A DNA stretch of 52,259 nt from Chromobacterium haemolyticum (lineage in GTDB: Bacteria > Pseudomonadota > Gammaproteobacteria > Burkholderiales > Chromobacteriaceae): contig NZ_MUKU01000036.1 of assembly GCF_002081825.1 (NCBI RefSeq), positions 1 to 52,259 on the forward strand, in the 5' to 3' direction. Below are positions 5,297-51,477 of the stretch, one piece after another; the stretch's first letter is position 1, and every line of letters starts with the position of its first letter. A program made the position numbers and the translations under genes. The notes under the pieces are model-generated. The model ran no database searches and was not told the origin of the DNA. It was given only the letters and a program-made list of their open reading frames with translations.

Positions 5297-6270
5297 AGCG
5301 GATCCTGGAATGATTCATACACGGTGAGAGTCCGGAGCGAGACGCCGGGGCGGGACCATGCGTCCACCCCCAGGCGCATGCGCCCCACCTTGCCTGCCAG
5401 TTCCGGCCGGGTGCGGACCTGGACCTTGATGACCGGAGCGGCCCGGCCATCGGCGAAATCAGCGGCGACGGCGAACATCGCCAGCACCGCGGGCGAGCCG
5501 CGCCGCCAGCGGGCAAACTCGGAGGCGTCGATCGGCCCTATGGTGATGTCCAGCGCGTGCTGGGCGTCCCAGATACGGCTGCCGACGCGCCAGTTTCCCA
5601 GCCGGCGCGGCCCGCCGACGCCGCGCAGCGGTATCCAGCGCCCCTGGCGCGGGGACAGCCGCACCGGCGCGCCGAAATAGCCGGCCAGGATTTTTCGCAA
5701 GTCCGCCAACGAGCGGCGCGGCGCGTGATAAGCGCCGGGATGGCTGCGACGGCAGGCGGCGGCGTGCGGGTCCAGCTGCGGCTCCGCCTCCGGCGCGGCG
5801 CCGGCCAGCGCGGCGACGCGTTCGGCGAAGGGATGACGACCCCGCTCGTAGCCCAACGCCGGGTGCATCGCCGCGCGGGCGGCGTAATGCAACCAGGCCA
5901 GATCCCCGCAGGCCAGATTGACGAAGCGTTCGAAAGCGGCGTTGCGCTCCAGCCGGCGCTCGTGCAGCGCGTGTTCGGTGATGTGCAGCGGCAAGGGGCC
6001 GTAGGGCGCGAACAAGCCGAAATGGCGGCATACCACGCTGACGCGCGGCGCGGCGTCGTCCTCCGCCTCCTCCACCCTTACCCCGCTGATTTCGCTGCTG
6101 GCGAAGTGCATGTCGGCGGCCTGTTCCAGGCCCAGCCAGTCCGGCCGGCGGCGCAGCCGGCTTGCCGCGGCCGCGTCCGGCAAGCGCCATTGCCAGGTTT
6201 CGACGCGGCGCATCAGTTCGAAGAAGGTTCGCTGCGAGTTCAGCTCCCGGATCATCTGCTGCCGTTTCAT
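5293..6270 (-). CDS. tssG: T6SS baseplate protein TssG
   Basis: 325 residues, starting MKRQQMIRELNSQRTFFELM. This is the TssG/ImpH/VasB family, part of the TssEFGK wedge of the T6SS baseplate on which the tail is built. Typical family features are the N-terminal FFELMRRVE, a central FGLFAPYGPLPLHITEHA and a C-terminal LGVDAWSRPG-like region. The frame is open further upstream, through tssF. The ATG at 6270 is chosen because it overlaps the tssF stop by 4 bases and gives the usual family length. The 3' end overlaps clpV by 4 bases. Expression should follow the rest of the operon. Confidence 0.95.
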   Translation of the reverse strand: MKRQQMIRELNSQRTFFELMRRVETWQWRLPDAAAASRLRRRPDWLGLEQAADMHFASSEISGVRVEEAEDDAAPRVSVVCRHFGLFAPYGPLPLHITEHALHERRLERNAAFERFVNLACGDLAWLHYAARAAMHPALGYERGRHPFAERVAALAGAAPEAEPQLDPHAAACRRSHPGAYHAPRRSLADLRKILAGYFGAPVRLSPRQGRWIPLRGVGGPRRLGNWRVGSRIWDAQHALDITIGPIDASEFARWRRGSPAVLAMFAVAADFADGRAAPVIKVQVRTRPELAGKVGRMRLGVDAWSRPGVSLRTLTVYESFQDPL

Positions 6271-8129
6271 TGCAGTTCTCCGTCGGCGCGCAGGGTATTG
6301 CCGTGCCGGCTGACCAGCTCGCCGTCCAGCCGCAAGCTGACCTCGATGCCGTCGTTGAGAGTGACTGCCTGTGCCAGCGCCTGCGCCAGCAGCCGGCCGA
6401 ACAACCAGCTGCCGCGGTCCGCGTGCATGACGGCGGCGATGTCGATGTCCACCAAGGCGGCGCGCACCAGGGCTTGTGGCGAGCCCCGGCCGGCGGGCAA
6501 AAAGCCGGCTTGCAGATGCGCCGCCTTCAGGCTGTCTATGCGCTGCCGGTCCAGCGCCAGTTCCGGCTGCGCCGCCAGCCGCAGCTGTTCCGCCAGCCGC
6601 GCGGCGATGTCTTGGCGGCCGGCGCCGCGCAGACTCAGCGGGTTCAAGCCGATATGGGCCACCGCTTGCCAGCAGCGCTCCAGGTCCGGGATCGGCCGCG
6701 GCGCGCTGGCAGGCCACAAGCATTCCAGCCGCGCCACCGCGCCGCCCTCGGCCCGCAGCTCCGCCGCAGGCAAATCCTCGGGCCGCCAACCGCGATCCGC
6801 CACCAGCGCGCGTCCGGTCAGGGTGGCGATGTCGTCCAGGCCGATGTCTCCGGCGCTGGCGGAAATAGTGATCAGATCGTGGCTGCCCAGCGTGTCGGGG
6901 CGCGCCTGGCGCGGCCCCTCGCTTTGAAGCGCCGGTTCGCGGCGCAGCGAGTAACGCGCCGCCGCCGGGCCGCTCTGGTAGCCACCGGCGTCCAGAGCCG
7001 GCCGCGCTTCGCGAGAGCGGCCGTTGCTGTCGCAAACATTGATTTCCAACAAGCGCCATAGGTGGTGCTCGGCCGGCCGCATCCGGTCCACCGGAATCCA
7101 TTGCTCGGTCTGGTTCGGGTCGTAAGGCACCGGGTCCAGCCGCTTGGGGTAGAGATTGATCGCCGGGGTGGCGAACAGACGGAACTGGCCGGCGTCGACT
7201 TCGCCTATCAGATCCAGCGGCGCCTGGCGCAAGGCCAGGATCAGTTCGAAGCCGCGCGCCGACGGCGCCCGCGCCGCCAAGGCCGCCAGCGCGTCCAATT
7301 CCACGCTGAGCAGCCGCGCCGGCTGGGCGAAGTATTCGCGCAACAGCCGCAAGCCCGGCAAACCGCCTGCGTCGGCGGGCAGCAGGGCCTCGCCCTCGTC
7401 GGCGGCGGACAGGCGCAGACCGCTGAGCGGCAACTCCAGCAAGACTTCGCCGCCACGCCCGTCGTCCGCAGTGGCGTACCAGGCGCCGACGTCGGCCAAC
7501 ATGGCGCGGTGCAGCGCGTAAGCGCGCGGCAGATCGCCGGCCAAGCTCAGTTGCAAGGGCTTGGCGCCTCCTTCGATGGCGGCCAGATCGCCCAGCGCCA
7601 CCGTGCCTTCCAGCTTGAAACTCAGGCGCAAGGCGGCCTGGGACGAGGCCAGCCGCCGCGCCAGTTCAGCGGACAGCCGGGTAAGGCCGCGGCCGCACTC
7701 CGCCCGTTCCAGCCTAAGCGGCAACAGAGTCACTTCGCGCCCGGTGGAGAAAGTGACCGGCCGGGCCGAACCCGGCAGCGTCGCCTGGATCAGCGTGCCG
7801 CGCGGCATGCTGCGGCCGCGGAAGGCTTCAGGAGAAGCGAAGTCCGGATGGAAGGCGAAGCTGCTGATCGCCGGCGTGGCGCTCAGATAGAGTGGGCAGA
7901 CCTGGGCCAGCGCCTGACGCGCGAATTCCGCGCACTCCAAGTCCAGCCGGGTCTGCACCCGGGCCGACAGAAAGGCCACGCCTTCCAGCAGGCGCTCGAC
8001 AAAGGGGTCTGCGACCGAATTCGGGCGCAAGCCGAGCGCCGGAGCGATCTGCGGATGCTCGCGAGCGAAACGCGCGCCGGCTTCGCGCAGATGGCGCAAT
8101 TCATTATTGTAGTGATCGAGGAAATTCAT
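6267..8129 (-). CDS. tssF: T6SS baseplate protein TssF
   Basis: 620 residues, TssF/ImpG/VasA family, the largest cytoplasmic wedge subunit of the T6SS baseplate. The N-terminus (MNFLDHYNNELRHLREAGA, then FAREHPQIAPALGL and DPFVERLLEGVAFL) is the family signature. Family-typical central and C-terminal strings such as PLDLIGEVDAGQFRLFATPA and NLYPKRLDPV are also present. It overlaps tssE upstream and tssG downstream by 4 bases each. Full length, no frameshift seen. Confidence 0.96.
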   Translation of the reverse strand: MNFLDHYNNELRHLREAGARFAREHPQIAPALGLRPNSVADPFVERLLEGVAFLSARVQTRLDLECAEFARQALAQVCPLYLSATPAISSFAFHPDFASPEAFRGRSMPRGTLIQATLPGSARPVTFSTGREVTLLPLRLERAECGRGLTRLSAELARRLASSQAALRLSFKLEGTVALGDLAAIEGGAKPLQLSLAGDLPRAYALHRAMLADVGAWYATADDGRGGEVLLELPLSGLRLSAADEGEALLPADAGGLPGLRLLREYFAQPARLLSVELDALAALAARAPSARGFELILALRQAPLDLIGEVDAGQFRLFATPAINLYPKRLDPVPYDPNQTEQWIPVDRMRPAEHHLWRLLEINVCDSNGRSREARPALDAGGYQSGPAAARYSLRREPALQSEGPRQARPDTLGSHDLITISASAGDIGLDDIATLTGRALVADRGWRPEDLPAAELRAEGGAVARLECLWPASAPRPIPDLERCWQAVAHIGLNPLSLRGAGRQDIAARLAEQLRLAAQPELALDRQRIDSLKAAHLQAGFLPAGRGSPQALVRAALVDIDIAAVMHADRGSWLFGRLLAQALAQAVTLNDGIEVSLRLDGELVSRHGNTLRADGELQ

Positions 8130-8572
8130 CCGGCAACCCCCGCCTCCGCCGTGCTCGGCAGGCCGAAATAGCCGTCCAGATAGTTAAGCGTCAGGTAGAG
8201 CCTCAGCGTTTCTCCGCCTTCGCGGGCAACCGCGGCCACGTCGAAATACAGCAGTTGCCGCGCAAGCGGCCCGCTGCCGACGCGCGCGCTCACTTCCACG
8301 CGCTCCGGGTCCAATCTCGGCTCGAAGCGGCGGATCGCATCGCGAATGTGGGCGCAGACGCGCGCCGGGTCGATCAGGCTAGACTTCCTCTCCGCCAGCG
8401 GCGGCCGCCCGTAGTTCCACACTGAGGTCTCCAGCTGACTGCCCGGCGCCAGCGGCAGGCGCGCGCCGCGCAGCGCGGCGTTCATCAAGTGCGCCAGGTC
8501 GCGCGCGATGCTGACGGCGAGCGTCTCGCGCCCGGCGCGGGCGGACAGTTGGTCGAATAGTCGTGGCGTCAT
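8126..8572 (-). CDS. tssE: T6SS baseplate protein TssE (gp25-like)
   Basis: 148 residues from the ATG at 8572 (MTPRLFDQLSA). Homologue of phage T4 gp25, which bridges baseplate wedges and starts sheath assembly. The gp25 core can be read from SIARDLAHLMNAALRGARL to the FEPRLDPERVEV stretch, the region of the conserved wedge-contacting residues. An in-frame upstream start at 8644 would add 24 residues, but those codons contain a perfect 8-bp-stem hairpin (8581-8600) and the added residues do not look like the family. I therefore prefer 8572. Neither start has a strong Shine-Dalgarno. The stop overlaps the tssF start by 4 bases. Confidence 0.9.
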   Translation of the reverse strand: MTPRLFDQLSARAGRETLAVSIARDLAHLMNAALRGARLPLAPGSQLETSVWNYGRPPLAERKSSLIDPARVCAHIRDAIRRFEPRLDPERVEVSARVGSGPLARQLLYFDVAAVAREGGETLRLYLTLNYLDGYFGLPSTAEAGVAG

Positions 8573-8580
8573 GGCTGCCC

Positions 8581-8600
8581 GGCGCCGCCTGAGCGGCGCC
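8581..8600 (-). other. Perfect hairpin between hcp and tssE
   Basis: GGCGCCGC, 4-base loop CTGA, GCGGCGCC. It lies 49 bases after the hcp stop and just upstream of the tssE start. No T-run follows, so a full terminator is unlikely. Hairpins after hcp are commonly thought to stabilise or partly terminate the transcript, so that Hcp is made in excess over baseplate proteins; that role here is inference. Confidence 0.6.
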
Positions 8601-8649
8601 GTCCCGATAGTGATAGAGAAGATGGCCGGAAAGACCCGGCTCATAGTGC

Positions 8650-9177
8650 TTAAACCGCGGCGTTCAGCTTCAGGTCGTAACCGGCCTTGATCACCGCGCC
8701 CATGGTTCCGTCGTTACGCTGTTCGCGGTATTCGAACTCGATCTTGGCGAAGTTGATCTTGATCTCGTCGGTGGGCAGCACGCTTTCCACGTCGCCACTG
8801 CCGTGGCCCATGATGGCGTAGGGCATATTGCCCAGGGTGCGGAACGAGGACACCAGGCCGCTGGCGAAGGTGATGATCATGAAGTCCTGCTGGCCGTTGC
8901 CGGATTTGCGGCAGATCAGCTTGGCGCGCGGGATGTGTTCGCCGGTGGCGCACATCAGGAACAGCTTGGGCGAGGCCTTGTTCGAGACCATGCGGAACTC
9001 GAAGTCCTTCATTTCCACCTTGCCGGCGCCGCCGCCGCTGCCGAAGCCCCATTTGCCCGAGTTCTCCTCGGCCCATTGCCAGCTCTGGATCTGGATCAAG
9101 CCCGTGTACTGCTTGTCAGTTGATTCCCCTTCGACTCCTTCGATCTGTAGAAAGTAGTCAACCAATGCATTTGCCAT
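8650..9177 (-). CDS. hcp: T6SS tail-tube protein Hcp
   Basis: 175 residues from MANALVDYFLQIEGVEGEST. Hcp hexameric rings stack into the inner tube of the T6SS tail, carry small effectors and are secreted. The sequence shows the family pattern: SWQWAEENSGKWGFG, then GKVEMKDFEFRM, LFLMCATGEHIPRAKLICRK and a C-terminal KINFAKIEFEYREQ. The longer frame begins 11 codons upstream. The ATG at 9177 is preferred because a GGAG site lies about 10 bases before it and it matches family N-termini. It sits between tssC and tssE, with 248 bases of untranslated DNA in front, so it probably has its own promoter or processing site. Confidence 0.96.
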   Translation of the reverse strand: MANALVDYFLQIEGVEGESTDKQYTGLIQIQSWQWAEENSGKWGFGSGGGAGKVEMKDFEFRMVSNKASPKLFLMCATGEHIPRAKLICRKSGNGQQDFMIITFASGLVSSFRTLGNMPYAIMGHGSGDVESVLPTDEIKINFAKIEFEYREQRNDGTMGAVIKAGYDLKLNAAV

Positions 9178-9425
9178 GTTGCGATACTCCGAAAAAAAAG
9201 TGATGGACATGCCAGACCTGAAACGGAATGCAAGCGCCGGGGCGACTCAGGTCGTTCCCGCCCCGCGCCAAACCGGCCGCTGTCAAACCCCGCTCACAGC
9301 CTCGCAAGCCGGGGAAAGACAAGCCGAAAACGCTTGAGAAAACGCAATGCGCGAGTAGTGCTTGAGCCTTTGGAAACGGTTTCCAAGGCCGTTTCGCCAA
9401 CGCGCGGCGAACGTGGAGCGGGTTC
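9178..9425 (-). promoter_or_regulatory. tssC-hcp intergenic region with a 17-bp palindrome
   Basis: This 248-base leader precedes hcp. Bases 9370-9386 form an odd-length palindrome, TTGGAAAC-G-GTTTCCAA, resembling an operator more than a terminator because no T-run follows. The 11-mer AAACGCTTGAG at 9328-9338 and the 10-mer GCTTGAGCCT at 9360-9369 both recur upstream of tssA (12540-12553). No sigma-54 site with correct spacing was found. Confidence 0.5.
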
Positions 9426-10937
9426 TCAGCGGGCGACCTCCTGCTTGGCCGACGGCAGCTTGGAAACCAGCCGCAGCGACACGGTCAAGCCCTCCAGCTG
9501 GAAATGCGGGCGCAGGAAAAACTGGGCGCGGTAATAGCCGGGGTTGTCCGGCAACTCGTCCACCAACACCTCGGCCGCGGACAGCGGGCGCTTGGATTTG
9601 GTGATCTCGCTGGAAATGCTCGGGTCGCCGTCCACGTAGTTCATCAGCCAGTCGTTGAGCCAGCGCTGGGTGTCTTCCCGCGATTTGAAGGAGCCGATCT
9701 TGTCGCGGACGATGCATTTGAGGTAATGGGCGAAGCGGCAGGTGGCGAAGATATAGGGCAGCCGCGACGACAGATTGGCGTTGGCGGTGGCGTCGTCGTC
9801 CTCGTACACCGCCGGCCGGTGCACGGTCTTGGCGCCGATGAAGGCCGCCATGTCCGAATTCTTGCGGTAAACCAGCGGCATCAGGCCGGATTCGGACAAC
9901 TCGTGCTCGCGGCGGTCGGAGATGGCGATCTCGGTGGGGCAATGCAACTCCACTTCCTTGTCCTGGGACGGCAGCACGAACTTGGGCAGCACTTCCACCG
10001 CGCCACCGGACTCCACGCCGCGGATCTTGGTGCACCAGCCGTAGGTGCTGAAGGCTCGGGTGATGTTGGCCGCCATTGCGTAAGCAGAGTTGGCCCAGCA
10101 AAAATCGCTGGCGCGGTTGGGGTCCACCTTCTCCTCGAAGCCAAACTCCTCTATCGGCTGGGTTTTGGGCCCGTAAGGCACCCGCGCCAGGAAGCGCGGC
10201 AGCGTCAACGCCAAGTAGCGCGAATCATTGCTTTCACGCAGCCGGCGCCAGAAGGCGTATTCGGTGGCGGTGAATATCTTGGACACGTCGCGCGGGTTGC
10301 CCAACTCGCTCCAGTCGTCCATCTGCAACAGGCTGGGCGCCGCGGCGGAGATAAAGGGCGAGTGCGCGGCGGCGGCGATCTTGGACATCTCGGTCAGCAA
10401 GGCCACGTCCTGGGCGCTGTGATCAAAGTGATAATCGCCGATCAAGCAGCCGAAGGGCTCGCCGCCGAACTGGCCGTACTCCTGCTCGTAGATCATCTTG
10501 AAGATCGGGCTTTGGTCCCACACCACGCCCTTGTAGCGGCGCAGGGTCTTGCCCAGCTCTTTCTTCGACACGTTCAGGTAGCGGATTTTCAGGTTCTCGG
10601 TGGTGTCGGTGTTGGACACCAGGTAGTGCAGGCCGCGCCAGGCGCCTTCCAGCTTCTGGAAATGCTCGTTGTGCAAGACCAGGGTCAGTTGTTCCGAGAT
10701 TTTCCGGTCCAGCTCGGCCACCAGTTGCTCCACCGTCTGCGCCACGTCCTCGCGCACCACCACCCGGCTGCGGCGCGCATAGGCCAGCAAGGTCTGCACC
10801 GCGCTTTGCACCGCCTCGGCGGCTTCATTGGTGCGCGGTCGGAAGGAACGACGCAGGATATCCTTCAGTCCGTCGTCTACCGTCGTTTCAGTCTGGCTGG
10901 CCGCGGCCGGCGCCAGCATCTCGGCATGAGTGCTCAT
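9426..10937 (-). CDS. tssC: T6SS contractile sheath large subunit TssC
   Basis: 503 residues. TssC (VipB/ImpC) pairs with TssB to form the contractile sheath around the Hcp tube. Recognisable family blocks are FQKLEGAWRGLHYLVSNT, the central YGQFGGEPFGCLIGDYHFDH, FLARVPYG and the C-terminal DGDPSISSEITKSKRPLSAA. It begins 4 bases inside the end of tssB. Length and motifs are normal. Confidence 0.97.
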   Translation of the reverse strand: MSTHAEMLAPAAASQTETTVDDGLKDILRRSFRPRTNEAAEAVQSAVQTLLAYARRSRVVVREDVAQTVEQLVAELDRKISEQLTLVLHNEHFQKLEGAWRGLHYLVSNTDTTENLKIRYLNVSKKELGKTLRRYKGVVWDQSPIFKMIYEQEYGQFGGEPFGCLIGDYHFDHSAQDVALLTEMSKIAAAAHSPFISAAAPSLLQMDDWSELGNPRDVSKIFTATEYAFWRRLRESNDSRYLALTLPRFLARVPYGPKTQPIEEFGFEEKVDPNRASDFCWANSAYAMAANITRAFSTYGWCTKIRGVESGGAVEVLPKFVLPSQDKEVELHCPTEIAISDRREHELSESGLMPLVYRKNSDMAAFIGAKTVHRPAVYEDDDATANANLSSRLPYIFATCRFAHYLKCIVRDKIGSFKSREDTQRWLNDWLMNYVDGDPSISSEITKSKRPLSAAEVLVDELPDNPGYYRAQFFLRPHFQLEGLTVSLRLVSKLPSAKQEVAR

Positions 10938-11461
10938 CTTGCCTCCCCGTCGGCTTGGGCCGCCTCGCCCGGCGCGGCGGCGTCGTCCGCGGGCAAATGC
11001 AGGTCTTTCAGCAGCTGCTCGATCAACTCCTCGGCCGCCACCTTGCCGTCCATATAGGTCAACAATTCCTTCAACTGGCTACGCGCGTCCAACAGCACCG
11101 CCAGTTCGGGGATCTTTTTCACCACCGCGGCCGGCTCGAAAGACTCCATGGAGTCGAAGCTCAAGTCGATCGGGATCAAGGTTCCGTCGTCGGTGATCAC
11201 GTTCTTCACGTGGTAGCTGAGTTCCGGCGCGATCTGCGCCATCCTCAGGTCGAAGTTCTCCACGTCGATTTCGGTGAAACGACGGTCTTCCACCGCGCCC
11301 AGCGGCTCGGTGTTGTCGCCGGACAAATCCGCCAACACCCCAGCCACAAAGGGCAGCTCTACCTTTTTCTGCGAACCGTAAACTTCCACGTCGTATTCGA
11401 TCTGCACGCGGGGCGCACGGCTTTCCCCGATGAACTTCTGCGCATCCTTCTGTCGCGCCAT
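10934..11461 (-). CDS. tssB: T6SS contractile sheath small subunit TssB
   Basis: 175 residues. TssB (VipA/ImpB) forms the sheath with TssC; its C-terminal region is what ClpV recognises after contraction in studied systems. Family motifs are RAPRVQIEYDVEVYGSQKKV near the start, ELPFVAGVLADLSG, and IDLSFDSMESFEP in the centre. A GGAAAGGA-type ribosome site lies just before the ATG. It is the second gene of the visible operon, 30 bases after tssA. Confidence 0.97.
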   Translation of the reverse strand: MARQKDAQKFIGESRAPRVQIEYDVEVYGSQKKVELPFVAGVLADLSGDNTEPLGAVEDRRFTEIDVENFDLRMAQIAPELSYHVKNVITDDGTLIPIDLSFDSMESFEPAAVVKKIPELAVLLDARSQLKELLTYMDGKVAAEELIEQLLKDLHLPADDAAAPGEAAQADGEAR

Positions 11462-11491
11462 GGCATATGTCCTTTCCCTAATGTTGCTTGA

Positions 11492-12427
11492 CTACCCTTG
11501 TGAAGACCGGGGGCGATCCAATTTCGCCACCAGCGCATCCGATTCGGCGAACAACTCCGCCATCAACTCTTCAAAACCCGCGCCCAACATCCGCTTGGCG
11601 CGCAGCAGAAAGATCGGCGCCGGGTGTCCCGGCTCGTGCTCGCGGAAATACGCGACAATCAAGTCCAGCGCCGCCGCCACCTCCTCTCGGCTCTTCAAGG
11701 CGCCGGCCGGCAGCGCGCGCGCCGCCGGGGCGGCCTCGCGCAAAACGGGCGCCTCTACGGGGACCGCGGCAAGCGTCGGCGTCAGCGCCGCTTCCAGCTC
11801 ATCCAGCAAGGCGATCAGACCGGCGCAGTCAAACTGCTCGGCAAAGCCTTCGCTCTCGCTCAAATCCGTCAAGCCGGCCAGGCCGGCGCGCAGCCGGGAC
11901 AAGTCCCCCAACGCCCGCTCCCGCGCCGCCGGCCCCGCAGCGGCCGGGTTCTTGGTCAAGTGGCCCACGCTGACCTCGCTGTCCGCGCTTAGCCGGCTAT
12001 GCGTCAGTTGATGCAGGAAGGCCGGCCCGCACAGCCAGGCCAGATGCAAGGCATGGGTTTCGCCCGCCGGCGCGTCCGGCTGGCCGGCCGGCCGGATCTT
12101 TTCCAACGGCTGCGCCGCGATCGCGCCCAACGCCGTCAACCCCTCCGCCGCACCGGCCAGCCCCCTCTGAGCCACCGCGGCGCGCAGCAGCCAAACCCCT
12201 ACCCGCACATCCGCCGCCTTGCTCAACAAGGCGCGGCACGCGCTCTCCACGCTGGTCCAGTGGAAGGGTTCCGCGCCCTTGCGCAGAGGAACGTGGCCCA
12301 CCGCGTCGTATTCGCAGATCGCGGCGTCGACGCGGGCAAAATCGGCGTCGAAATCCAGCTCGTCCAAGACCGGACTTTCCGGCAAGACGATATCGGCGAT
12401 GGCGTAGCTCATGGTTTCAGCGTTCAT
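11492..12427 (-). CDS. tssA: T6SS assembly protein TssA (ImpA family)
   Basis: 311 residues from the ATG at 12427. TssA primes and caps sheath polymerisation at the baseplate. The N-terminal ImpA pattern (residues about 8-70, VLPESPVLDELDFDADFARV and later FHWTSVESACRALLS) is recognisable. The C-terminal part has a TssA-like helical repeat ending in ILLRAKRMLGAG-like text. Alternative starts are GTG at 12460 and ATG at 12412; none has a strong ribosome site, so the exact start is uncertain by up to 11 codons upstream or 5 downstream. It is the first gene of the visible operon. The promoter must lie upstream of 12427. Confidence 0.88.
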   Translation of the reverse strand: MNAETMSYAIADIVLPESPVLDELDFDADFARVDAAICEYDAVGHVPLRKGAEPFHWTSVESACRALLSKAADVRVGVWLLRAAVAQRGLAGAAEGLTALGAIAAQPLEKIRPAGQPDAPAGETHALHLAWLCGPAFLHQLTHSRLSADSEVSVGHLTKNPAAAGPAARERALGDLSRLRAGLAGLTDLSESEGFAEQFDCAGLIALLDELEAALTPTLAAVPVEAPVLREAAPAARALPAGALKSREEVAAALDLIVAYFREHEPGHPAPIFLLRAKRMLGAGFEELMAELFAESDALVAKLDRPRSSQG

Positions 12428-44454: not shown

Positions 44455-44600
44455 TAAGAACCTGTTCACGATCTTTTCTGATCGGAAGTCTTGTTCAAAG
44501 CAACGCTTTCAGAATGCTCATCTACCACCTGCACATTCCGCTTCTTCAACCGTTTTCGCCTGGTCTCGCCTTAGCTCGCGAGATCGTGAACACGTTCTAA
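44455..44600. repeat. Palindromic intergenic element, copy F (inverted orientation)
   Basis: About 146 bases, from TAAGAACCTGTTCACGATCT to AGATCGTGAACACGTTCTAA. The interior carries the reverse complement of the core (AATGCTCAT...CACATTCCGC, then CCGTTTTCGCCTGGTCTCGCC). It lies just after a 16-base perfect palindrome AGGAAAGCGCTTTCCT at 44440-44455. Confidence 0.88.
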
Positions 44601-44839
44601 AGCCAATTTGCTTCGGCCGCGCATCGAAGAGGCAATATTGAAAACGGTCGACCTTCCACGCCGTCTTCAAGGCGCCACCCAGTCCTTGATGATGCGATGG
44701 CGAAAAAACTACATAAGTTAATCAAATTGCTTGCACCCTACAATCTCATCTTCTAGTATCCGCCTCAGACAGTACAAGAACAATCCATTTTAAATGTACT
44801 TGACCTATTGCATAAGCAATATGACTGAATCACCCCATC
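44601..44839 (+). promoter_or_regulatory. AT-rich region upstream of the biosynthetic cassette
   Basis: About 240 bases between two repeat elements, no gene. TTGACC at 44800-44805 resembles a -35 box and is followed by the dyad TATTGC-ATAA-GCAATA (44806-44821), but a good -10 at 17 bases is lacking. Promoter or operator function for the cassette at 45055 is plausible, although repeat copy G would then lie inside the transcribed leader. Confidence 0.35.
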
Positions 44840-44986
44840 TTAGAATCTGTTCACGGTCTTGCGAGCTAAGGCGAGACAAGGCGAAAACGAGCGAGAAAGC
44901 GGAATGTACTCGTGGCACATGAGCATTTTGAGCTTGGTTTCAACGCCGTATCGCCGACGCGCAGCAGATCATAATACAGCTTCTTA
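44840..44986. repeat. Palindromic intergenic element, copy G
   Basis: About 147 bases, from TTAGAATCTGTTCACGGTCT to AGATCATAATACAGCTTCTTA. The interior is nearly identical to copy B (GGCGAGACAAGGCGAAAACG, GCGGAATGTACTCGTGGCAC, ATGAGCATTTTGAGC, CAACGCCGTATCGCC). It stands 68 bases before the ATP-grasp gene. Confidence 0.9.
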
Positions 44987-45054
44987 GGGATGGCATTGAC
45001 TCGGCCTGAGGCTTAGCGACGGAAAGATCGGTCAAGAGCGACTGCAGGGAGGAA

Positions 45055-46413
45055 ATGGCCTTGACCCCTCATTCATCCTCATATCCTACCGTCTGCATCG
45101 CCAATGCAATCGACACCCTGCGCCCCATCATTCAGCGCGCGCCAACCGCGCCCGAAAAAACGCGGATAACCAAGTCGCTCTTCCCGCAGCAGGATCAGGC
45201 GGTCTTCTGGCGACCATTGGACAAACTAATCATATCCGAGCAGCCAATAGAAGGATTCCAGTGGCTCGGCGCCTTCCTTGGCGCCTCTCACGCGCAAAAC
45301 ATCAGCCCCAAACACCCCAGCGGCAACCTCTTTCGAGACGTGGTGCTCGACTCTGCATTGCAGGCCGCCATCGTGCAGTGGAGCGGCGCGGCGCGCTGCA
45401 TCCAGCTCATCGTGCACACCACGACCCAAGAGCTGTGGCCTATGGTGCAGTTTCTGCGACAGCAGCTGAAACTAACCGTGTTGCTTCCTGAAAGCTGTTC
45501 CGATCAGGCCTTTAGGGATCGCCTGGATTCCAAATCCGGCTTTCGCCAATTCGCCTCGGATCATGGCTTCAGCGTCGGCAGAGCCAGAATCGCCAACGGC
45601 CGGTGTTGCGCTACGCGCGCAGAAGCCGCCATCGCCATTGCCGATCTGCTGGCGACGGACAGGCCGGCGATTGCCAAACCGGACCGCGGCGAGGCCAGCG
45701 TTGGCCTGAATGTGTTCCAACCCGGCACTAGCGGGTCCATCCTGCGCGATACGCTGGGCGCCAATTCTTATTTTGGCGACGAACCCATTGTCATTGAGGA
45801 ATACATACAAGGCGACGAACTTACTTTTCCCTCGGTGGAATACTTTGTTCCCATGGAGAGCGGCCAAGCGCCCTATCTGACTTATGCCTGCTCCATGCTA
45901 TTCAGCGACATGCTGGAGCTATGCGGCAACTTCGTGTCTCCTGAACACCGCCATACTCCTTGGCACGAGCCGCTGTGCAATGCCGGCCTCCGCCTTGCGC
46001 AAGCGATGCAAGACGCCGGTTTCGTCGGTTATTTCGATATCGATGCGGTCGCCCTGCCCAATGGGGACAGCATCATGCTGGACCTGAACCCACGCCGCAC
46101 CGGCGCAACGCATGTGCACGAGTTTGCCTCGGCCACGCTGGGCGCAGGCTACCAGCGCACCCACACGGTTGGCGCCATCGATTTATACGGACAGCGCCCA
46201 GTTCAATTCGAAGAAGTTCTCTCCAAGCTGGGCTCATCTATTCGCAGCCCGCTGACCGCAACCGCAGCTTGCATGCCCTGCGAGCTCACCGGACTTCAAG
46301 AAGGCCGCATCAGTCTCATGCTTTGGGGTCCCACTGCCGAATCGGTCTTGTCTTTGCAACAAACCGCTCAGAAAGCGCTGCAACCACTGGGTTTTCCACT
46401 CGACGGCACGTAG
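45055..46413 (+). CDS. ATP-grasp ligase, first gene of the biosynthetic cassette
   Basis: 452 residues. ATP-grasp enzymes activate a carboxylate as acyl phosphate and couple it to an amine, often forming a peptide-like bond. The C-terminal two thirds carry the fold: a conserved Lys in IAKPDRGEASVGLNVF (Lys208), the adenine-contacting acidic pair in PIVIEEYIQGDELTF (residues 248-249), and the metal-binding DIDAVALPNGD and IMLDLNPRRTGATHV (Asp343, Asn345, Arg347). The first 150 residues resemble the pre-ATP-grasp domain of stand-alone ligases. The start is the ATG two bases after GGGAGGAA; a TTG two codons later has better spacing. The substrates are unknown. Gene order suggests the amino partner may be the product of the KamA-like enzyme. 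Confidence 0.88.
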   Translation: MALTPHSSSYPTVCIANAIDTLRPIIQRAPTAPEKTRITKSLFPQQDQAVFWRPLDKLIISEQPIEGFQWLGAFLGASHAQNISPKHPSGNLFRDVVLDSALQAAIVQWSGAARCIQLIVHTTTQELWPMVQFLRQQLKLTVLLPESCSDQAFRDRLDSKSGFRQFASDHGFSVGRARIANGRCCATRAEAAIAIADLLATDRPAIAKPDRGEASVGLNVFQPGTSGSILRDTLGANSYFGDEPIVIEEYIQGDELTFPSVEYFVPMESGQAPYLTYACSMLFSDMLELCGNFVSPEHRHTPWHEPLCNAGLRLAQAMQDAGFVGYFDIDAVALPNGDSIMLDLNPRRTGATHVHEFASATLGAGYQRTHTVGAIDLYGQRPVQFEEVLSKLGSSIRSPLTATAACMPCELTGLQEGRISLMLWGPTAESVLSLQQTAQKALQPLGFPLDGT

Positions 46414-46526
46414 CGTTTCAGCTACGGCAGTCATCGTGCAAGGACTCACGACGCGCAGCCGACTTTGAACGAGCCCCAAGCTCGGCAAGGCGCGCGATCA
46501 CGACAATACATTAGAAGGAAATTCTC

Positions 46527-47426
46527 ATGGCTGCTTATCAAGTCTGTGGCCTGCCACTGCTATCTCCTTTGATTGTCGGTTCTGGTCCCATCACCGACAA
46601 CGAGCGCAATATCCGGCGCTTCCTGCGCGCCGGCGCGGGCGCCGTCGTCACCAAGACCATTCACCCCAAGCCGCCCAAAGACAACGATGAAAAAGTGATT
46701 GCCATTCCAAGCGGCTGGTTGAATAGCACGACTTATTCCCAGCGCCCCGTCGGCGGCTGGATGGCCATACTCTCCCGCCTGGCAGCGGATAATGCGCCAG
46801 TCATGGCTTCCATCCATGCCGACTCGCCTGGCGAACTCGCGTCATTGGCCGCGGCGATTGCGACAACCGGTTGCCGGGCTCTGGAGCTGGGCATTTCCTG
46901 TCTTAACGAGGCCGAGAAGTTCATGGACACCCCCAAGCGGGTTTTCGACTATGCGCTAGCGGTAAAAAGAGCCGTCAACCTGCCCTTCAGCGTAAAACTA
47001 GGCATCAGCAGCACGCTGCGGCAGCGCGTCGACGCCGCCATTAGCGCGGGGGCGCATGCGATTACCTTGAGCGACACGATTCTTGGACTCGTCGTGGATC
47101 CCCGCACATCGCAAATCCGCCTGGGAGGCGCATACGGTTACTCGGGGCCAGGCATCCGCCCACTGGTGCAAGCTGCCATCTACGAGTTGCGTAGAACCGG
47201 AGTCTCGATACCCATCTTTGGGTCGGGCGGCGTGATGTCGTCAAGCGACGCCATCGAGTACTTATGCATAGGCGCGAATGCGGTCCAGATTTACTCTGTG
47301 CTGCAGACCAAAAACCATTCTGTCGCGCAAATATCGGCAGGCATCACCAAGCTGTTGGCCGAACGGCAGATCCCACTCTCTCAATTGATAGGCAGCAGCT
47401 TGTATTTGGAGGAGCAGACATGCTGA
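46527..47426 (+). CDS. Dihydroorotate dehydrogenase-like FMN enzyme
   Basis: 299 residues, ATG preceded by AGAAGGAAA. This TIM-barrel flavoprotein belongs to the PyrD / dihydropyrimidine dehydrogenase (PreA) group, which oxidises or reduces the 5,6-bond of pyrimidine-type rings. Visible landmarks are LLSPLIVGSGPITDNERNIR, AVVTKTIHPKPP, the active-loop region LGISCLNEAEKF (Cys where class 1 enzymes have NLSCPN), the FMN-contacting PFSVKLG and TLSDT, and the phosphate-binding FGSGGVMSSSDA with GANAVQIYSVL. It has neither the N-terminal membrane helix of class 2 PyrD nor a second domain. A biosynthetic rather than housekeeping role is inferred from its position in the cassette. Confidence 0.88.
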   Translation: MAAYQVCGLPLLSPLIVGSGPITDNERNIRRFLRAGAGAVVTKTIHPKPPKDNDEKVIAIPSGWLNSTTYSQRPVGGWMAILSRLAADNAPVMASIHADSPGELASLAAAIATTGCRALELGISCLNEAEKFMDTPKRVFDYALAVKRAVNLPFSVKLGISSTLRQRVDAAISAGAHAITLSDTILGLVVDPRTSQIRLGGAYGYSGPGIRPLVQAAIYELRRTGVSIPIFGSGGVMSSSDAIEYLCIGANAVQIYSVLQTKNHSVAQISAGITKLLAERQIPLSQLIGSSLYLEEQTC

Positions 47427-48181
47427 CTAACGCTCGCCACTTGGCAGACCTGACCAGCGCTGAACTCCCGGTCATGGTGAAACATTCCACCGTGGTCTGG
47501 GGGGTGGGCAGCATAGAACAACATGGGCCACACCTGCCTTTATCCGTCGATCTAGACATCGCGGCGGCTCTCTGCGAGGCCGTCGCCGCGCGCCTTGACA
47601 ATGCTTACCTTGCTCCGGCGCAGACTTTTGGCGCCCGGTCATTGCCACAAAGCGGCGGCGGCCTGTTCTATCCGGGAACGCTGTACCTGACCGGCGCCAC
47701 CCTCATCGACTATCTGCAGGAACTCATCAGCGGCCTGGCCCAACTGGAGTGCGCGCATCTGCTGATAATCAATGGGCACTACGAGAACGAGGCTTTCCTA
47801 TTCGAGGCGATAGACCACTGTCGTCAGGCTGGCCAGTTAACACATACCCGAGTTTCCGCCTTCAGTTGGTGGAGCCTGGTGCAGACTGATTGGATCAGCC
47901 AACACATTGGCCCCCGTTTCCCCGGCTGGCATGCCGAACATGCCGGGCTGACAGAAACGAGCCTGATGCTGTATCTGCGTCCCGATGTCGTCAGGGTAGA
48001 ACGGCCCGTCCATGACACCCCTCCGCTCTCCGGCCTCTACTCCCACCCCGCGGACCCTGATTTGACCAGCAACAACGGGGTCTTGTCTTCCACTCTGGGC
48101 TCCTCAATGGAGCTGGGCAAAGCCTTGTTCGAGCACGTGGTAGAGCAAGTGCTCGAGCACGCAAGCCATCAAACGGCATAA
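47420..48181 (+). CDS. Creatininase-family metallohydrolase
   Basis: 253 residues from the ATG at 47420, with GGAGGAG upstream, overlapping the preceding gene by 7 bases. Creatininase hydrolyses a cyclic amide using two metal ions. The known ligands Glu34, His36, Asp45, His120 and Glu122 of Pseudomonas creatininase have matches at Glu33, His35, Asp44, His120 and Glu122 (EQHGPHLPLSVD and NGHYENE). HAEHAGLTETS (171-181) is the usual third motif. Relatives include creatinine amidohydrolase, the formamide hydrolase of riboflavin/F420 metabolism and MftE, the peptidase of the mycofactocin pathway. Hydrolysis of a ring amide or a small peptide is possible. No precursor peptide gene was seen nearby. 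Confidence 0.9.
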   Translation: MLTNARHLADLTSAELPVMVKHSTVVWGVGSIEQHGPHLPLSVDLDIAAALCEAVAARLDNAYLAPAQTFGARSLPQSGGGLFYPGTLYLTGATLIDYLQELISGLAQLECAHLLIINGHYENEAFLFEAIDHCRQAGQLTHTRVSAFSWWSLVQTDWISQHIGPRFPGWHAEHAGLTETSLMLYLRPDVVRVERPVHDTPPLSGLYSHPADPDLTSNNGVLSSTLGSSMELGKALFEHVVEQVLEHASHQTA

Positions 48182-48195
48182 CCATGGAGACTGTG

Positions 48196-48765
48196 ATGAA
48201 CCACTCGATAGCACCGCATATTCCACCCGCCAGGATGGAGGACGTTTCTGTCTTCGTTGGCGGGCCCATACAACATGCGCTGAAAAAAGAGGGAATGACG
48301 ACGGAAGCGGCATCGCCGATCAAGGCCGTCCATGACGTCATTCATGGGATGAGGCTGCACTTGCTTTCCGCTCACCTTGCCGAGCGCTTTGGACAAGATA
48401 GCCACAACTACTCGCCCACCGAGGTGGTGCTGCGCGACTATGACTGGATGCTGCAATGTTCGCTCTTCATCGCCATCTTGCCTTGCGACAGTCAGAGCCA
48501 ACTGATCCGGACCGATGGCACCCATATCGAGCTTGGCTGGGCCTCCTCCCTCAAGAAACCGATATTGGTTCTTGCCCAGTCACACAGCCATGCCCAGCTG
48601 TCCCATCTCGTCAAAGGGCTGGCATGCGTCAGCCAAGTCAAGATCCTTGACCTGGGCAGCGTCTTGCAAAAACCGCAAATCCTGCAGCAGGCGATCCAGG
48701 CACAACTTCCGCCGGCAGGTCAGGACATTGGCCCCAGCCACTTGATGAAAAATCCCGCCCGGTGA
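48196..48765 (+). CDS. Nucleoside 2-deoxyribosyltransferase-like protein
   Basis: 189 residues from the ATG at 48196 (GGAG 6 bases upstream); an ATG at 48184 is also in frame. The fold pattern of the NDT/N-glycosidase superfamily is seen: DVSVFVGGPIQHALKKE at the start, DWMLQCSLFIAILP in the middle, and DGTHIELGWASSLKKPILVL with Glu112 as probable nucleophile. Family members move or remove a base from a nucleoside or nucleotide. MilB and BlsM of mildiomycin and blasticidin S pathways are CMP hydrolases of this fold. Whether this one hydrolyses a nucleotide or a cyclic nucleotide cannot be read from the sequence. It lies between the creatininase-like and KamA-like genes. Confidence 0.8.
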   Translation: MNHSIAPHIPPARMEDVSVFVGGPIQHALKKEGMTTEAASPIKAVHDVIHGMRLHLLSAHLAERFGQDSHNYSPTEVVLRDYDWMLQCSLFIAILPCDSQSQLIRTDGTHIELGWASSLKKPILVLAQSHSHAQLSHLVKGLACVSQVKILDLGSVLQKPQILQQAIQAQLPPAGQDIGPSHLMKNPAR

Positions 48766-48817
48766 GCGAAACGGCCGGCCAGGTTTTTCCTTCATTGCCA
48801 TCGGAGGCGACCCTACC

Positions 48818-50077
48818 ATGCGTCTACATCAATTAGTCAAGGACATGCAGTTCGATGATCCACTCTGGCAGGAGCGCCACACCATTACCCGGCCAGAACA
48901 GCTGCGGGAGGTGCTGGATGAGATCTTGCGCCCGTCGGCGCTGGACGACATGATTGCCGGCCTGCAAAAAGCATCGATGTCGGTTCGCATCAATCCCTAT
49001 CTGCTCGATCTGATTAATTGGCAAGATATGGAGCATGATCCTATCCGTCGGCAGTTTCTACCCCTCGCCTCGGAAATGACGGCATCACACCCCTTGCAGT
49101 CGCTTGACGCCTTGGACGAAACAGCAGACTCACCGGTGGAAGGCTTGGTCCATCGTTATCCGGACCGGGCCTTGTTGCTGGTGACGGATCGCTGTCCGGT
49201 TTACTGTCGCTTCTGCACCCGTAGCTACAGCGTCGGCGTTGATACCAGTTCAGTCATCAAGGTGCGCGCCCAATCCATATCGCATCGATGGCAGTCTATC
49301 CTGTCTCATCTGCGCATGACGCCGGGCATTGTGGATGTCGTCGTATCGGGAGGAGATTGCGCTCGGCTCAAAGCCAGCCAAATACTAGAAATAGGACGAG
49401 GCCTCATCGCGATCCCATCCATTCGGCGCATCCGCTTCGCTTCAAAAGGGCTCTCGGTATTGCCAATGAAGATCACCCGGGATGATGCCTGGACCGATGC
49501 CTTGACCGTGGTAAGCGATGAAGGCAGGCGCCAAGGCGTGGAGGTCTCCCTGCAGACCCACTTCAATCACCCTATTGAAATCACGCCTTCCGTGTTGTCC
49601 GCGGCCAATCTGCTGTTTGCCAAAGGCGTGATGGTGCGAAATCAATCCGTTCTTCTGCGCGGAGTCAATGACAATGCAAACGTGCTTGGTCGTCTCATCA
49701 AACACCTGGGGGACTTGCACATCCATCCATATTATGTGTACCTATGCGACCCGGCTCCCGGCATTGAGGACATGCGAGTCGACTTGGCAACGGCCTGCCG
49801 GCTGGAAAAAGCAGTGAGGGGCGTGACTGCGGGTTACAATATGCCCGCATTTGTCATCGACGCTCCCGGCGGTGGCGGCAAGCGCCTTATCCATAGTTAC
49901 GAGCGCTATGATCGTTACTCGGGCCTATCCACCTTTACCGCTCCTGCGGTCAAAGCCGGCCGCCTCTTCCTGTATCCGGACCCGCTGCACGCGCTCAGCC
50001 CGGATGCGCGTCGGGATTGGCTCGATCCGCAACGGGCGCAAGCGATGGTGGCCGAGATGCAGCGCCAAAGTGCTTAA
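48818..50077 (+). CDS. KamA-family radical SAM aminomutase (lysine 2,3-aminomutase-like)
   Basis: 419 residues, close to Clostridium lysine 2,3-aminomutase (416). The 4Fe-4S cluster motif is CPVYCRFC (Cys126, 130, 133). Arg135 two residues later corresponds to the carboxylate-binding Arg134. The PLP-binding Lys lies in DAPGGGGK (Lys355). Asp311 (LCDPAPG) and Asp348 (VIDAP) are 37 residues apart, exactly the spacing of Asp293 and Asp330 that hold the epsilon-amino group of lysine; glutamate-type mutases replace these. This predicts a basic substrate such as lysine or arginine and a beta-amino acid product. It is not EpmB: that is shorter, and no efp or epmA gene is near. The gene has its own GGAGG site about 10 bases upstream. 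Confidence 0.9.
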   Translation: MRLHQLVKDMQFDDPLWQERHTITRPEQLREVLDEILRPSALDDMIAGLQKASMSVRINPYLLDLINWQDMEHDPIRRQFLPLASEMTASHPLQSLDALDETADSPVEGLVHRYPDRALLLVTDRCPVYCRFCTRSYSVGVDTSSVIKVRAQSISHRWQSILSHLRMTPGIVDVVVSGGDCARLKASQILEIGRGLIAIPSIRRIRFASKGLSVLPMKITRDDAWTDALTVVSDEGRRQGVEVSLQTHFNHPIEITPSVLSAANLLFAKGVMVRNQSVLLRGVNDNANVLGRLIKHLGDLHIHPYYVYLCDPAPGIEDMRVDLATACRLEKAVRGVTAGYNMPAFVIDAPGGGGKRLIHSYERYDRYSGLSTFTAPAVKAGRLFLYPDPLHALSPDARRDWLDPQRAQAMVAEMQRQSA

Positions 50078-50088
50078 CCGCACAGCCA

Positions 50089-51477
50089 ATGCCCAGTCTC
50101 CCTCCCTCGTCAGCCCGCCATTTGCGGCGATACCTGCTTTTGCAGCGGCGCTTGCTCAAGGGCTCGCTGCCGGTGATCAGCTTCTACCTGGCCGAAGTGG
50201 CGATGACGCTTACCGACGCGGCCTTCGTCGGCCACCTCGGCGCGACGGAACTGGCGGCGATCGGCCTTTCCATCGGCGCGCTGTTTCCATTGATATTTGG
50301 CGGCATGGCCTTGGTCTCGACCGGGTGCATCTTCGTTTCCGAGGCCCATGCGCGCAGTGATCATGCCGGCGCCCAGGCGGCGCTCGATCTCAGCCTATGG
50401 ACCTGCCTCGCCCTGTCCCCAGCGCTGATCGCCGCCGCCTTGCTGCTGCCGGCGGCGTTCCGCCTGGCCGACCAGGACCCGGCCGTGGTCGCCTTGTGCG
50501 CGCAATACCTTGCCATCGTCGGCTGGAGCATTCCTGCCATGCTGGGTTTCAGCGTCTACCGCGCCTACGTTTCGGCGCTGGACGCGAATCGGGTGATCTT
50601 TTTCGTCAGCCTGGGCGGCGTGCTGCTGAATGCCGCGCTCAATTATGTGCTGGTGTTCGGCGCGCTCGGCCTGCCCGCCCTTGGGCTGGCCGGCGCGGCG
50701 GTGGGAACCGCCTTGTCCAACTGGGCGATGGTGTTCGCCATCGCTCGCCACTGCCGGCATCGACTCGGCTACCGCTTTCGCTGGCGCTCGCTCTCGGGAC
50801 TGGACGGACAAACCTGCCGCGAGCTGCTCCGCATCGGCCTACCCTCCTTCGCTGTTGGCTTGTTCGAAAGCAGCTTGTTCGGCGTGGTGACGCTGCTGGC
50901 GGGCTACTTCGGCGTCGCCTTCATGGCCGCCACCACCATAGCCATCTACGTGGGCGATCTTTTCATCATCCTGGCGTTGGGAATAGGCGACTTGCTGACC
51001 GTGCAACTGGCCGCCAAGGCGGCGCGCGGCGATGTGCGCGGCGGCCGCCGGCTGGCCTGGAGCGCCCTGCTCTTAATCAGCGCGCTGACCGCGCCCCTGG
51101 CCGCGCTTTGCTGGTGGCTGCCGGACTGGATCGCCGGCATCTTCATCGACACCGCCAAGGCCGAGGCGGCCGAGGTGTTGCGATACGCCCAAATCCTGCT
51201 GGGCATACTTGCCTGGTTCTTGCTGGCGGATGCCGCTCAAATCATCTTGTCGCGCAGTCTGAAAGGCATGCGCGACACATTGGCGCCAATGTGGATCGCC
51301 AGCATCGGCTATTGGCTGATAGGCATAGGCGGCGGCTGGATGCTGGCCACCCAGGGCGGGCTGGGTGGCGTCGGCCTCTGGTATGGGCTGGCCGCGGGGC
51401 TTAGCCTGGCGGCGCTTGCGCTGGCGTGTCGGCTAGGCGCATGGACTCCGCCCAAGGCCTTATCCGCGCGTAGATAA
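50089..51477 (+). CDS. MATE-family exporter
   Basis: 462 residues with about 12 membrane helices, beginning at the ATG at 50089, 11 bases after the KamA-like stop. Family patterns are AEVAMTLTDAAFVGHLGATE, FVSEAHARSDHAGA, the LLNAALNYVLVFG repeat between halves, and ILSRSLKGMRDTLAPMW in the second half. MATE proteins expel cationic or aromatic compounds in exchange for protons or sodium. As the last gene of the cassette it most simply exports the product or protects the producer. Start uncertainty: no strong ribosome site, so it is possibly translated by coupling. Its DNA is more GC-rich than the five genes before it. Confidence 0.93.
   Translation: MPSLPPSSARHLRRYLLLQRRLLKGSLPVISFYLAEVAMTLTDAAFVGHLGATELAAIGLSIGALFPLIFGGMALVSTGCIFVSEAHARSDHAGAQAALDLSLWTCLALSPALIAAALLLPAAFRLADQDPAVVALCAQYLAIVGWSIPAMLGFSVYRAYVSALDANRVIFFVSLGGVLLNAALNYVLVFGALGLPALGLAGAAVGTALSNWAMVFAIARHCRHRLGYRFRWRSLSGLDGQTCRELLRIGLPSFAVGLFESSLFGVVTLLAGYFGVAFMAATTIAIYVGDLFIILALGIGDLLTVQLAAKAARGDVRGGRRLAWSALLLISALTAPLAALCWWLPDWIAGIFIDTAKAEAAEVLRYAQILLGILAWFLLADAAQIILSRSLKGMRDTLAPMWIASIGYWLIGIGGGWMLATQGGLGGVGLWYGLAAGLSLAALALACRLGAWTPPKALSARR

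Follow-up and report, generated by a model that had tools for sequence, protein, structure and literature searches.

A run of six genes in Chromobacterium haemolyticum (contig NZ_MUKU01000036.1) is, at somewhat better than even chances, a compact operon for an amidine-ended beta-amino-acid amide, N-(2-amidinoethyl)-beta-lysinamide. The window analyzed was this contig at its full length of 52,259 bases, one of 88 contigs in the assembly. The open reading frame (ORF) listing placed the six genes at 45055-51477, co-directional on the plus strand, and they encode an ATP-grasp ligase, a flavoprotein resembling dihydroorotate dehydrogenase (DHODH), a creatininase-like metal amidohydrolase, a protein with the nucleoside deoxyribosyltransferase (NDT) fold, a KamA-family radical SAM aminomutase and a MATE exporter. 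All six assignments, which had previously been made from the sequence alone, were borne out by family matches, that of the ATP-grasp protein by profile only.

In the proposed pathway, the NDT-fold protein would release cytosine from cytidine monophosphate (CMP), the flavoprotein would reduce cytosine to 5,6-dihydrocytosine, and the creatininase-like enzyme would open the ring at C2, with the resulting carbamate losing CO2 to leave 3-aminopropionamidine. KamA would convert lysine to beta-lysine (3,6-diaminohexanoate), the ligase would form an amide bond between beta-lysine, through its carboxyl group, and 3-aminopropionamidine, through its amine, and the MATE protein would export the resulting N-(2-amidinoethyl)-beta-lysinamide (C9H21N5O; calculated [M+H]+ 216.1819). 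The atom balance of the ring-opening step fits (dihydrocytosine C4H7N3O + H2O -> C3H9N3 + CO2). From the observed genes, families and key residues, and from the recurrence of the flavoprotein, creatininase-like and NDT genes (the trio) with and without the ligase, we propose each of these reactions, as well as lysine as the substrate, the coupling order and a role like that of an antibiotic.

A three-enzyme unit for cytosine breakdown

The trio is best read as a portable unit that would convert cytosine to 3-aminopropionamidine, because the six best solved relatives of the NDT protein are CMP hydrolases, the metal-binding residues of creatininase are kept, and pyrrolamide-like clusters carry the same three genes. 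The NDT protein matched PF05014 at 1.2e-5, under the Pfam cut-off. Its six best solved relatives were Blasticidin M, CMP N-glycosidase and CMP/hydroxymethyl CMP hydrolase (1.7e-18 to 1.8e-14), which favors the CMP-hydrolase role suggested in the sequence-only reading, and it carried the GTHxE(I/L)GWA motif of CMP N-glycosidases of the MilB/BlsM type, whose glutamate we take to be the catalytic residue. In the flavoproteins of the trio, a cysteine aligned to Cys135 of DHODH B, to which we ascribe a catalytic role, was invariant (4/4). Creatininase opens a cyclic acyl-guanidine, and the metal ligands of its family (E/H/D/H/E) were all kept in the cassette protein. Over the aligned stretch, the cassette proteins were 54% (DHODH), 59% (creatininase-like) and 45% (NDT) identical to those of a pyrrolamide-like locus, L024, and the flavoprotein was closer to the trio DHODH inside pyrrolamide-like clusters than to housekeeping DHODH.

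A DHODH profile built from four trio proteins, none of them from pyrrolamide loci, matched the trio loci at 3.5e-128 or better, and no other drawn genome matched at 1e-45. Scoring in most of these surveys was confined to the top 5, 8 or 19 first-look candidates of each genome, and the counts are samples in which rarity is approximate. At 1e-45, matches were found in 4/394 genomes of the Longimycelium class, 14/293 in the order of genome G826 (three shared with the Longimycelium-class set), 1/399 in the window's order (its own genome), 1/118 around Paraburkholderia (that genome itself) and 1/274 of the phylum (again its own). We term the order of G826 an actinomycete order because G826 belongs to the Longimycelium class. 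In all 14 of the 14 marker-bearing loci of this order, the genes were adjacent on one strand in the order NDT-DHODH-creatininase, whereas the order in the window is DHODH-creatininase-NDT. In trees of 20 rows each, the window, its sister species and Agrobacterium formed a group with supports of 100/99 (DHODH), 95/90 (creatininase-like) and 100/100 (NDT), and the Paraburkholderia row fell among actinomycete rows in all three; both Agrobacterium and Paraburkholderia carried a long-branch warning.

The 14 loci fell into four classes according to their neighbors: two were pyrrolamide-like (L024 and L040, with a standalone condensation domain and UDP-sugar genes), eight carried an FMN monooxygenase, a flavin reductase and an MFS transporter (L025, L026, L041 and L043-L047), two had an 836-residue neighbor (penicillin-amidase-like in L048, alike in size only in L042), and two had an ATP-grasp ligase and an MFS transporter (L049 and L050). 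The monooxygenase was placed in the NtaA/DmoA group by NCBIfam for L025 and by similarity to L025 for the other seven, and L025, L041, L044 and L046 stop at contig ends near 13 kb, where absences are not firm. A CTP synthase gene lay near the trio in 3/8 loci of this class; therefore, a cytidine nucleotide is indicated as the source. Separately, these eight loci would represent a further use of the amidine module.

Around the trio in L024 were genes for ABC transporters, a standalone condensation domain, a UDP-sugar dehydrogenase, an epimerase, a nucleotidyltransferase and a GH42-type protein; in congocidine clusters, the pyrrole unit is made by sugar genes. The stretch that follows (L054) encodes an Amidohydro_2 protein, a methyltransferase, a second standalone condensation domain and an A-PCP-C module. 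This gene content fits the published congocidine cluster, for which passages of PMC4047045 describe standalone condensation domains (Cgc2 and Cgc16) and an amidohydrolase (Cgc14), and L024 presumably makes a pyrrolamide. Since the flavoprotein and the amidohydrolase belong to a trio found in such clusters and best read as breaking cytosine down, the earlier suggestion that the product carries a pyrimidine ring was not upheld: a beta-amino-acid amide seems the right product, with the pyrimidine probably consumed rather than retained.

The ligase and the supply of the acyl part

The ATP-grasp protein matched no Pfam family up to E 0.1; a profile of this protein and three relatives matched the solved ligases PGM1 (7.6e-10) and 8ynd (2e-9). 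As a query it gave four matches in 369 genomes of the window's class (its own and three distant ones), and alone against a genome-contig collection it gave three loci. An ATP-grasp ligase stood alongside the trio in eight loci, representing seven different sequences. The relatives found with the trio were on two Agrobacterium plasmids (53%), in Longimycelium tulufanense (44%), in a metagenome-assembled genome (MAG) of the Paraburkholderia Vsou symbiont (32%; we guess that "Vsou" denotes a Vangueria plant host) and in two genomes of the G826 order (41-42%), and exporters, either MATE or MFS, accompanied the trio and ligase. In a tree of eight rows, the ligases of the window, the sister species and Agrobacterium grouped at 100/100. 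The earlier proposal that a KamA-derived beta-amino acid is joined by the ligase and then exported is in keeping with these results.

The genes that could supply the acyl part differed between lineages. In the two Agrobacterium loci, a LysA-like decarboxylase (scoring 261.8 bits where the cut-off is 297.9) and a 2-oxoglutarate (2OG)-Fe oxygenase occupied the place of KamA, which suggests a lysine-derived acid again. In L050, divergent genes encode an aminotransferase, a FabA-like protein, a ketosynthase and an AMP-ligase, and the ORFs of L049 resemble these in size and share their layout; the two loci could be candidate amidinomycin-type clusters, the L050 genes being suited to an amidinomycin-like acid. 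The four core genes of Longimycelium are followed by an MFS transporter, with no obvious acyl gene among the ten neighboring ORFs scanned (three of which matched no family). In Solimicrobium silvestre, fragments of ATP-grasp and KamA genes precede a MATE gene (L012 9950-12463), with no DHODH marker at 1e-20, and from its remaining pieces this stretch reads as a decayed cassette.

The window's KamA protein scored 211.6 bits against the TIGR00238 cut-off of 199.2 and matched the lysine 2,3-aminomutase structure 2a5h at 1.3e-62 in an alignment of 354 residues. Its C126/C130/C133, R135, D311, D348 and K355 corresponded to C125/C129/C132, R134, D293, D330 and K337 of 2a5h, among which we take the CxxxCxxC cysteines to be the radical SAM motif, R134 the carboxylate arginine, D293 and D330 the ligands of the lysine side-chain amine, and K337 the pyridoxal phosphate lysine. 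It was also 34.8-37.9% identical to plasmid-borne proteins annotated ablA.

We hold it an evenly balanced proposition that a portable cytosine-to-amidine module joined to an ATP-grasp ligase constitutes an undescribed class of operon for amidine pseudopeptides that needs no nonribosomal peptide synthetase (NRPS), with a lineage-specific acyl supplier, and that the window version makes a new beta-lysine amidine. Such a class would extend over actinomycetes, the window's genus, a Paraburkholderia symbiont and conjugative plasmids of Agrobacterium, where it lies beside an annotated LuxI/LuxR-type pair.

Other arrangements of these genes were also seen. The two Agrobacterium loci (L013 and L014) lie on conjugative plasmids, with the core beside a LuxR gene, the LysA-like decarboxylase and the 2OG oxygenase; the gene next to LuxR is annotated as an acyl-homoserine-lactone synthase in L013 and as GNAT in L014, with NCBIfam scores far under the cut-off. 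In the Paraburkholderia Vsou symbiont MAG (L011), the trio, MATE and ATP-grasp genes stand among transposase genes, about 4 kb from a LuxR-type regulator. A PreATP-grasp protein (L056 2944-4290) with 24.6% identity to the window ligase over 321 residues is encoded near the pyrrolamide-like cluster of genome G1103. Relatives of KamA were present on plasmids of Rhizobium (58-60%) and Klebsiella (41%), in L057, L058 and L059; the stretches read held neither trio nor ligase, the Klebsiella relative adjoining a class I tRNA-ligase-like gene and an MFS gene. In L009 and L015, KamA lies beside a distant ATP-grasp ligase without the trio; a deoxyhypusine-synthase-like gene adjoins in L009 and genes annotated for diaminopropionate are present in L015, and it is possible that both make other beta-amino-acid amides.

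Locus layout and occurrence in the genus

The complete six-gene set, in unchanged order and with the same upstream neighbors, was present in the genome of a sister species (G005), whose proteins were 88.5-95.5% identical. Among 101 relatives searched, the KamA protein was found in three, namely the window's genome, G005 (95% identity) and G075 (distant, 29%), and the DHODH marker was found in 2/19 genus genomes. At the same site, the cassette was absent from G014, where the sequence jumps from position 3195 to position 9895 of locus L008 with a 4-base overlap, and from G001, where it jumps from 3127 to 12256 and the difference is hence larger. In G002 (locus L051), the flank extends to L008 3140 and is followed, after about 120 bases, by the MATE gene only, without the other five genes; this MATE gene is 97% identical in DNA to that of G005, and the upstream flank of G002 is 89% identical. 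Therefore, the cassette is a discrete unit, about 6.7 kb long, acquired or lost at a single site in the genus.

The six genes occur together more than by chance, since the sister species keeps the set and four of the genes recur jointly in unrelated bacteria. The sequence-only reading had called the combination undescribed. This stands for the six-gene set, which among what was searched was complete only in the window and the one sister species, and does not stand for half of the pathway, which is of a described type. No paper on the six-gene set was found in the literature searched, a result of little weight with most subscription journals outside the coverage. From the genes compared, the parts are of known kinds and the combination looks new. 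A phage or viral origin was considered and rejected: the ATP-grasp protein had no match in phages, and no DHODH relative was confirmed in viral contigs.

Table 1. Coordinates of the cassette genes and their leader in the window.
Feature	Coordinates	Strand	Basis
Non-coding leader, presumed promoter region of operon	44642..45054	+	no ORF of 80 aa or more listed
ATP-grasp ligase	45055..46413	+	profile match to PGM1/8ynd; relatives near trio elsewhere
DHODH-like flavoprotein	46527..47426	+	PF01180 (8.4e-24); solved relatives DHODH B, dihydropyrimidine dehydrogenase
Creatininase-like metal amidohydrolase	47420..48181	+	PF02633 (1e-50); creatininase structures closest solved relatives (1e-55); metal positions kept
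NDT-fold protein, putative CMP N-glycosidase	48184..48765	+	six best solved relatives
KamA-family radical SAM aminomutase	48818..50077	+	TIGR00238 above cut-off; 2a5h match
MATE exporter	50089..51477	+	PF01554 (7e-33); TIGR00797

The creatininase gene probably starts at ATG 47420 rather than at 47264, near the N-termini of its relatives and with a 7-base overlap with the DHODH gene, and the MATE gene probably starts at ATG 50089 rather than at TTG 50017. With these starts moved, the large overlaps are start-codon artefacts; the intergenic distances become 113, -7, 2, 52 and 11 bases, so that the earlier description of gaps of 113 bases or less holds and only the 7-base overlap remains. The G+C content was 57-60% in the enzyme genes and about 65% in the MATE gene.

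Site scans of the leader listed no promoter-like site on the plus strand and no CviR-type box, and promoter, terminator and Rfam scans of the window gave nothing useful. Quorum-sensing control in the window was rejected as a candidate, with 48 sites for a CviR-type box against 45 expected, which is about chance; L008 had 22 sites against 16 expected, a count reached by 14/200 shuffles. In the window, the interval separating the SMR genes from the start of the operon had a single weak site listed (44350, 2 mismatches). An inverted repeat pair (83%) at 44509-44600 and 44840-44931, both copies of which are absent from the corresponding place in L008, looks like a MITE-type element; it had at least 43 matches in the genome, a lower bound with 40 of 294 first-look candidates scored.

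Alternatives and comparison with known systems

Several points weigh against the beta-lysine amidine amide as the product. KamA scored 244.4 bits against the 525.4 of the lysine 2,3-aminomutase (AblA) equivalog cut-off, TIGR03820; none turned up in the Agrobacterium, Longimycelium and Paraburkholderia stretches retrieved, so that such operons can do without it; and the plasmid-collection proteins most similar to it (58-60%, rhizobial) had neither trio nor ligase nearby in the two stretches inspected. The matches of the ligase to ligases of known function were weak or short, and both its substrates are unreadable from sequence. No PyrK-like electron-transfer partner is present among the six genes, and the role ascribed to Cgc4-6 of congocidine, converting cytosine to 3-aminopropionamidine, is not known to have been proved in vitro. 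The first of these points bears on a rather unlikely alternative, in which the amidine is made as proposed and KamA acts on ornithine, arginine or a modified lysine to give a different acyl part. KamA fell under the cut-off of every aminomutase equivalog matched, and, compared with lysine 2,3-aminomutase, it contains insertions and differs in its C-terminal part, as this alternative would allow; yet both lysine-amine aspartates and the carboxylate arginine are kept, and the lysine model scored highest (244 of 525 bits), above the arginine (TIGR04468, 190 of 600) and glutamate (188 of 650) models. The arginine aminomutase cue of the sequence-only reading thus fits less well than a lysine aminomutase. 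It is also unlikely, and more so, that the trio uses uracil, passing from UMP through uracil and dihydrouracil to N-carbamoyl-beta-alanine (or beta-alanine), with the ligase making a dipeptide of the beta-lysyl/beta-alanine type. Dihydropyrimidine dehydrogenase, which reduces uracil, is among the solved relatives of the flavoprotein; against uracil stand the CMP hydrolases as nearest solved relatives of the NDT protein, the CTP synthase near the trio in one class, the availability of beta-alanine without a dedicated pathway, and the presence of the trio in pyrrolamide-like clusters, whose products contain 3-aminopropionamidine according to passages of PMC4047045.

A blasticidin- or mildiomycin-like peptidyl nucleoside that retains cytosine is extremely improbable. 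The CMP hydrolase MilB serves mildiomycin, as a passage of PMC11784345 states. The blasticidin S pathway uses an arginine 2,3-aminomutase and cytosylglucuronate synthase. However, a cytosylglucuronate-synthase-like protein, a second radical SAM enzyme and a methyltransferase are all missing from the six proteins, and an amidohydrolase with a base reductase would destroy the cytosine; this candidate was rejected. Nor do the TIGR04468 score and the absence of a glycosyltransferase among the six proteins fit the blasticidin S pathway. Scarcely more credible is a loose run of genes, partly for pyrimidine and lysine breakdown, without a common product. Each enzyme family has catabolic members too, and the run occurs in few genomes of the genus (2/19), but four of the genes recur jointly across phyla in different orders, and the ligase and exporters travel along with them.

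If the beta-lysine amidine amide is indeed the product, the cassette would add a hitherto unreported compound to a small family of structurally simple, antibiotic-like molecules, and a nucleotide base would be recycled as a building block without an NRPS. The proposal gives an uncharacterized operon a testable structure and would explain the joint travel of the flavoprotein, the creatininase-like enzyme and the CMP-hydrolase-like protein. It also yields a search rule with two parts, the trio and an ATP-grasp ligase, for producers of amidine antibiotics (sperabillins, amidinomycin and noformicin).

Among known systems, passages of PMC4047045 give 3-aminopropionamidine as the common precursor of the pyrrolamides studied there, in which NRPS condensation domains are thought to add the amine to pyrrole units. 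The cassette has in common with the 3-aminopropionamidine module of congocidine (netropsin) and distamycin three families that are encoded together, in a gene order different from that of L024; in place of NRPS condensation, it has an ATP-grasp ligase and KamA, and no NRPS gene. PGM1, the pheganomycin ligase whose role is described in part of PMC8939145, and BesA are distant ATP-grasp relatives that join amino acids; matches to them are short or weak, and their substrates differ. Lysine 2,3-aminomutase (KamA/AblA) shares the key 2a5h residues with the cassette KamA, whereas the insertions, the other C-terminal part and the missed equivalog cut-off set the two apart. For sperabillin, amidinomycin and noformicin, no gene cluster was found in the literature searched, which lacks most subscription journals, and the literature passages named sperabillin and noformicin in reference lists only. 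The sperabillins of Pseudomonas are N6-acylated 5-hydroxy-beta-lysine amides of 3-aminopropionamidine. On that structure, the predicted product has their beta-lysine/amidine skeleton and equals their core minus the hydroxyl and acyl groups; among the cassette genes there is no hydroxylase or acyltransferase for the 5-hydroxylation and N6-acylation, and for the beta-lysine unit the cassette KamA has lysine-type residues with a score under the AblA cut-off. The resemblance to sperabillin-type compounds suggests that the product may be antibacterial. Amidinomycin and noformicin, presumably small amides of 3-aminopropionamidine with a cyclopentane amino acid or a cyclic imino acid as the acyl part, have the 3-aminopropionamidine amide in common with the predicted product and differ from it in the acyl part.

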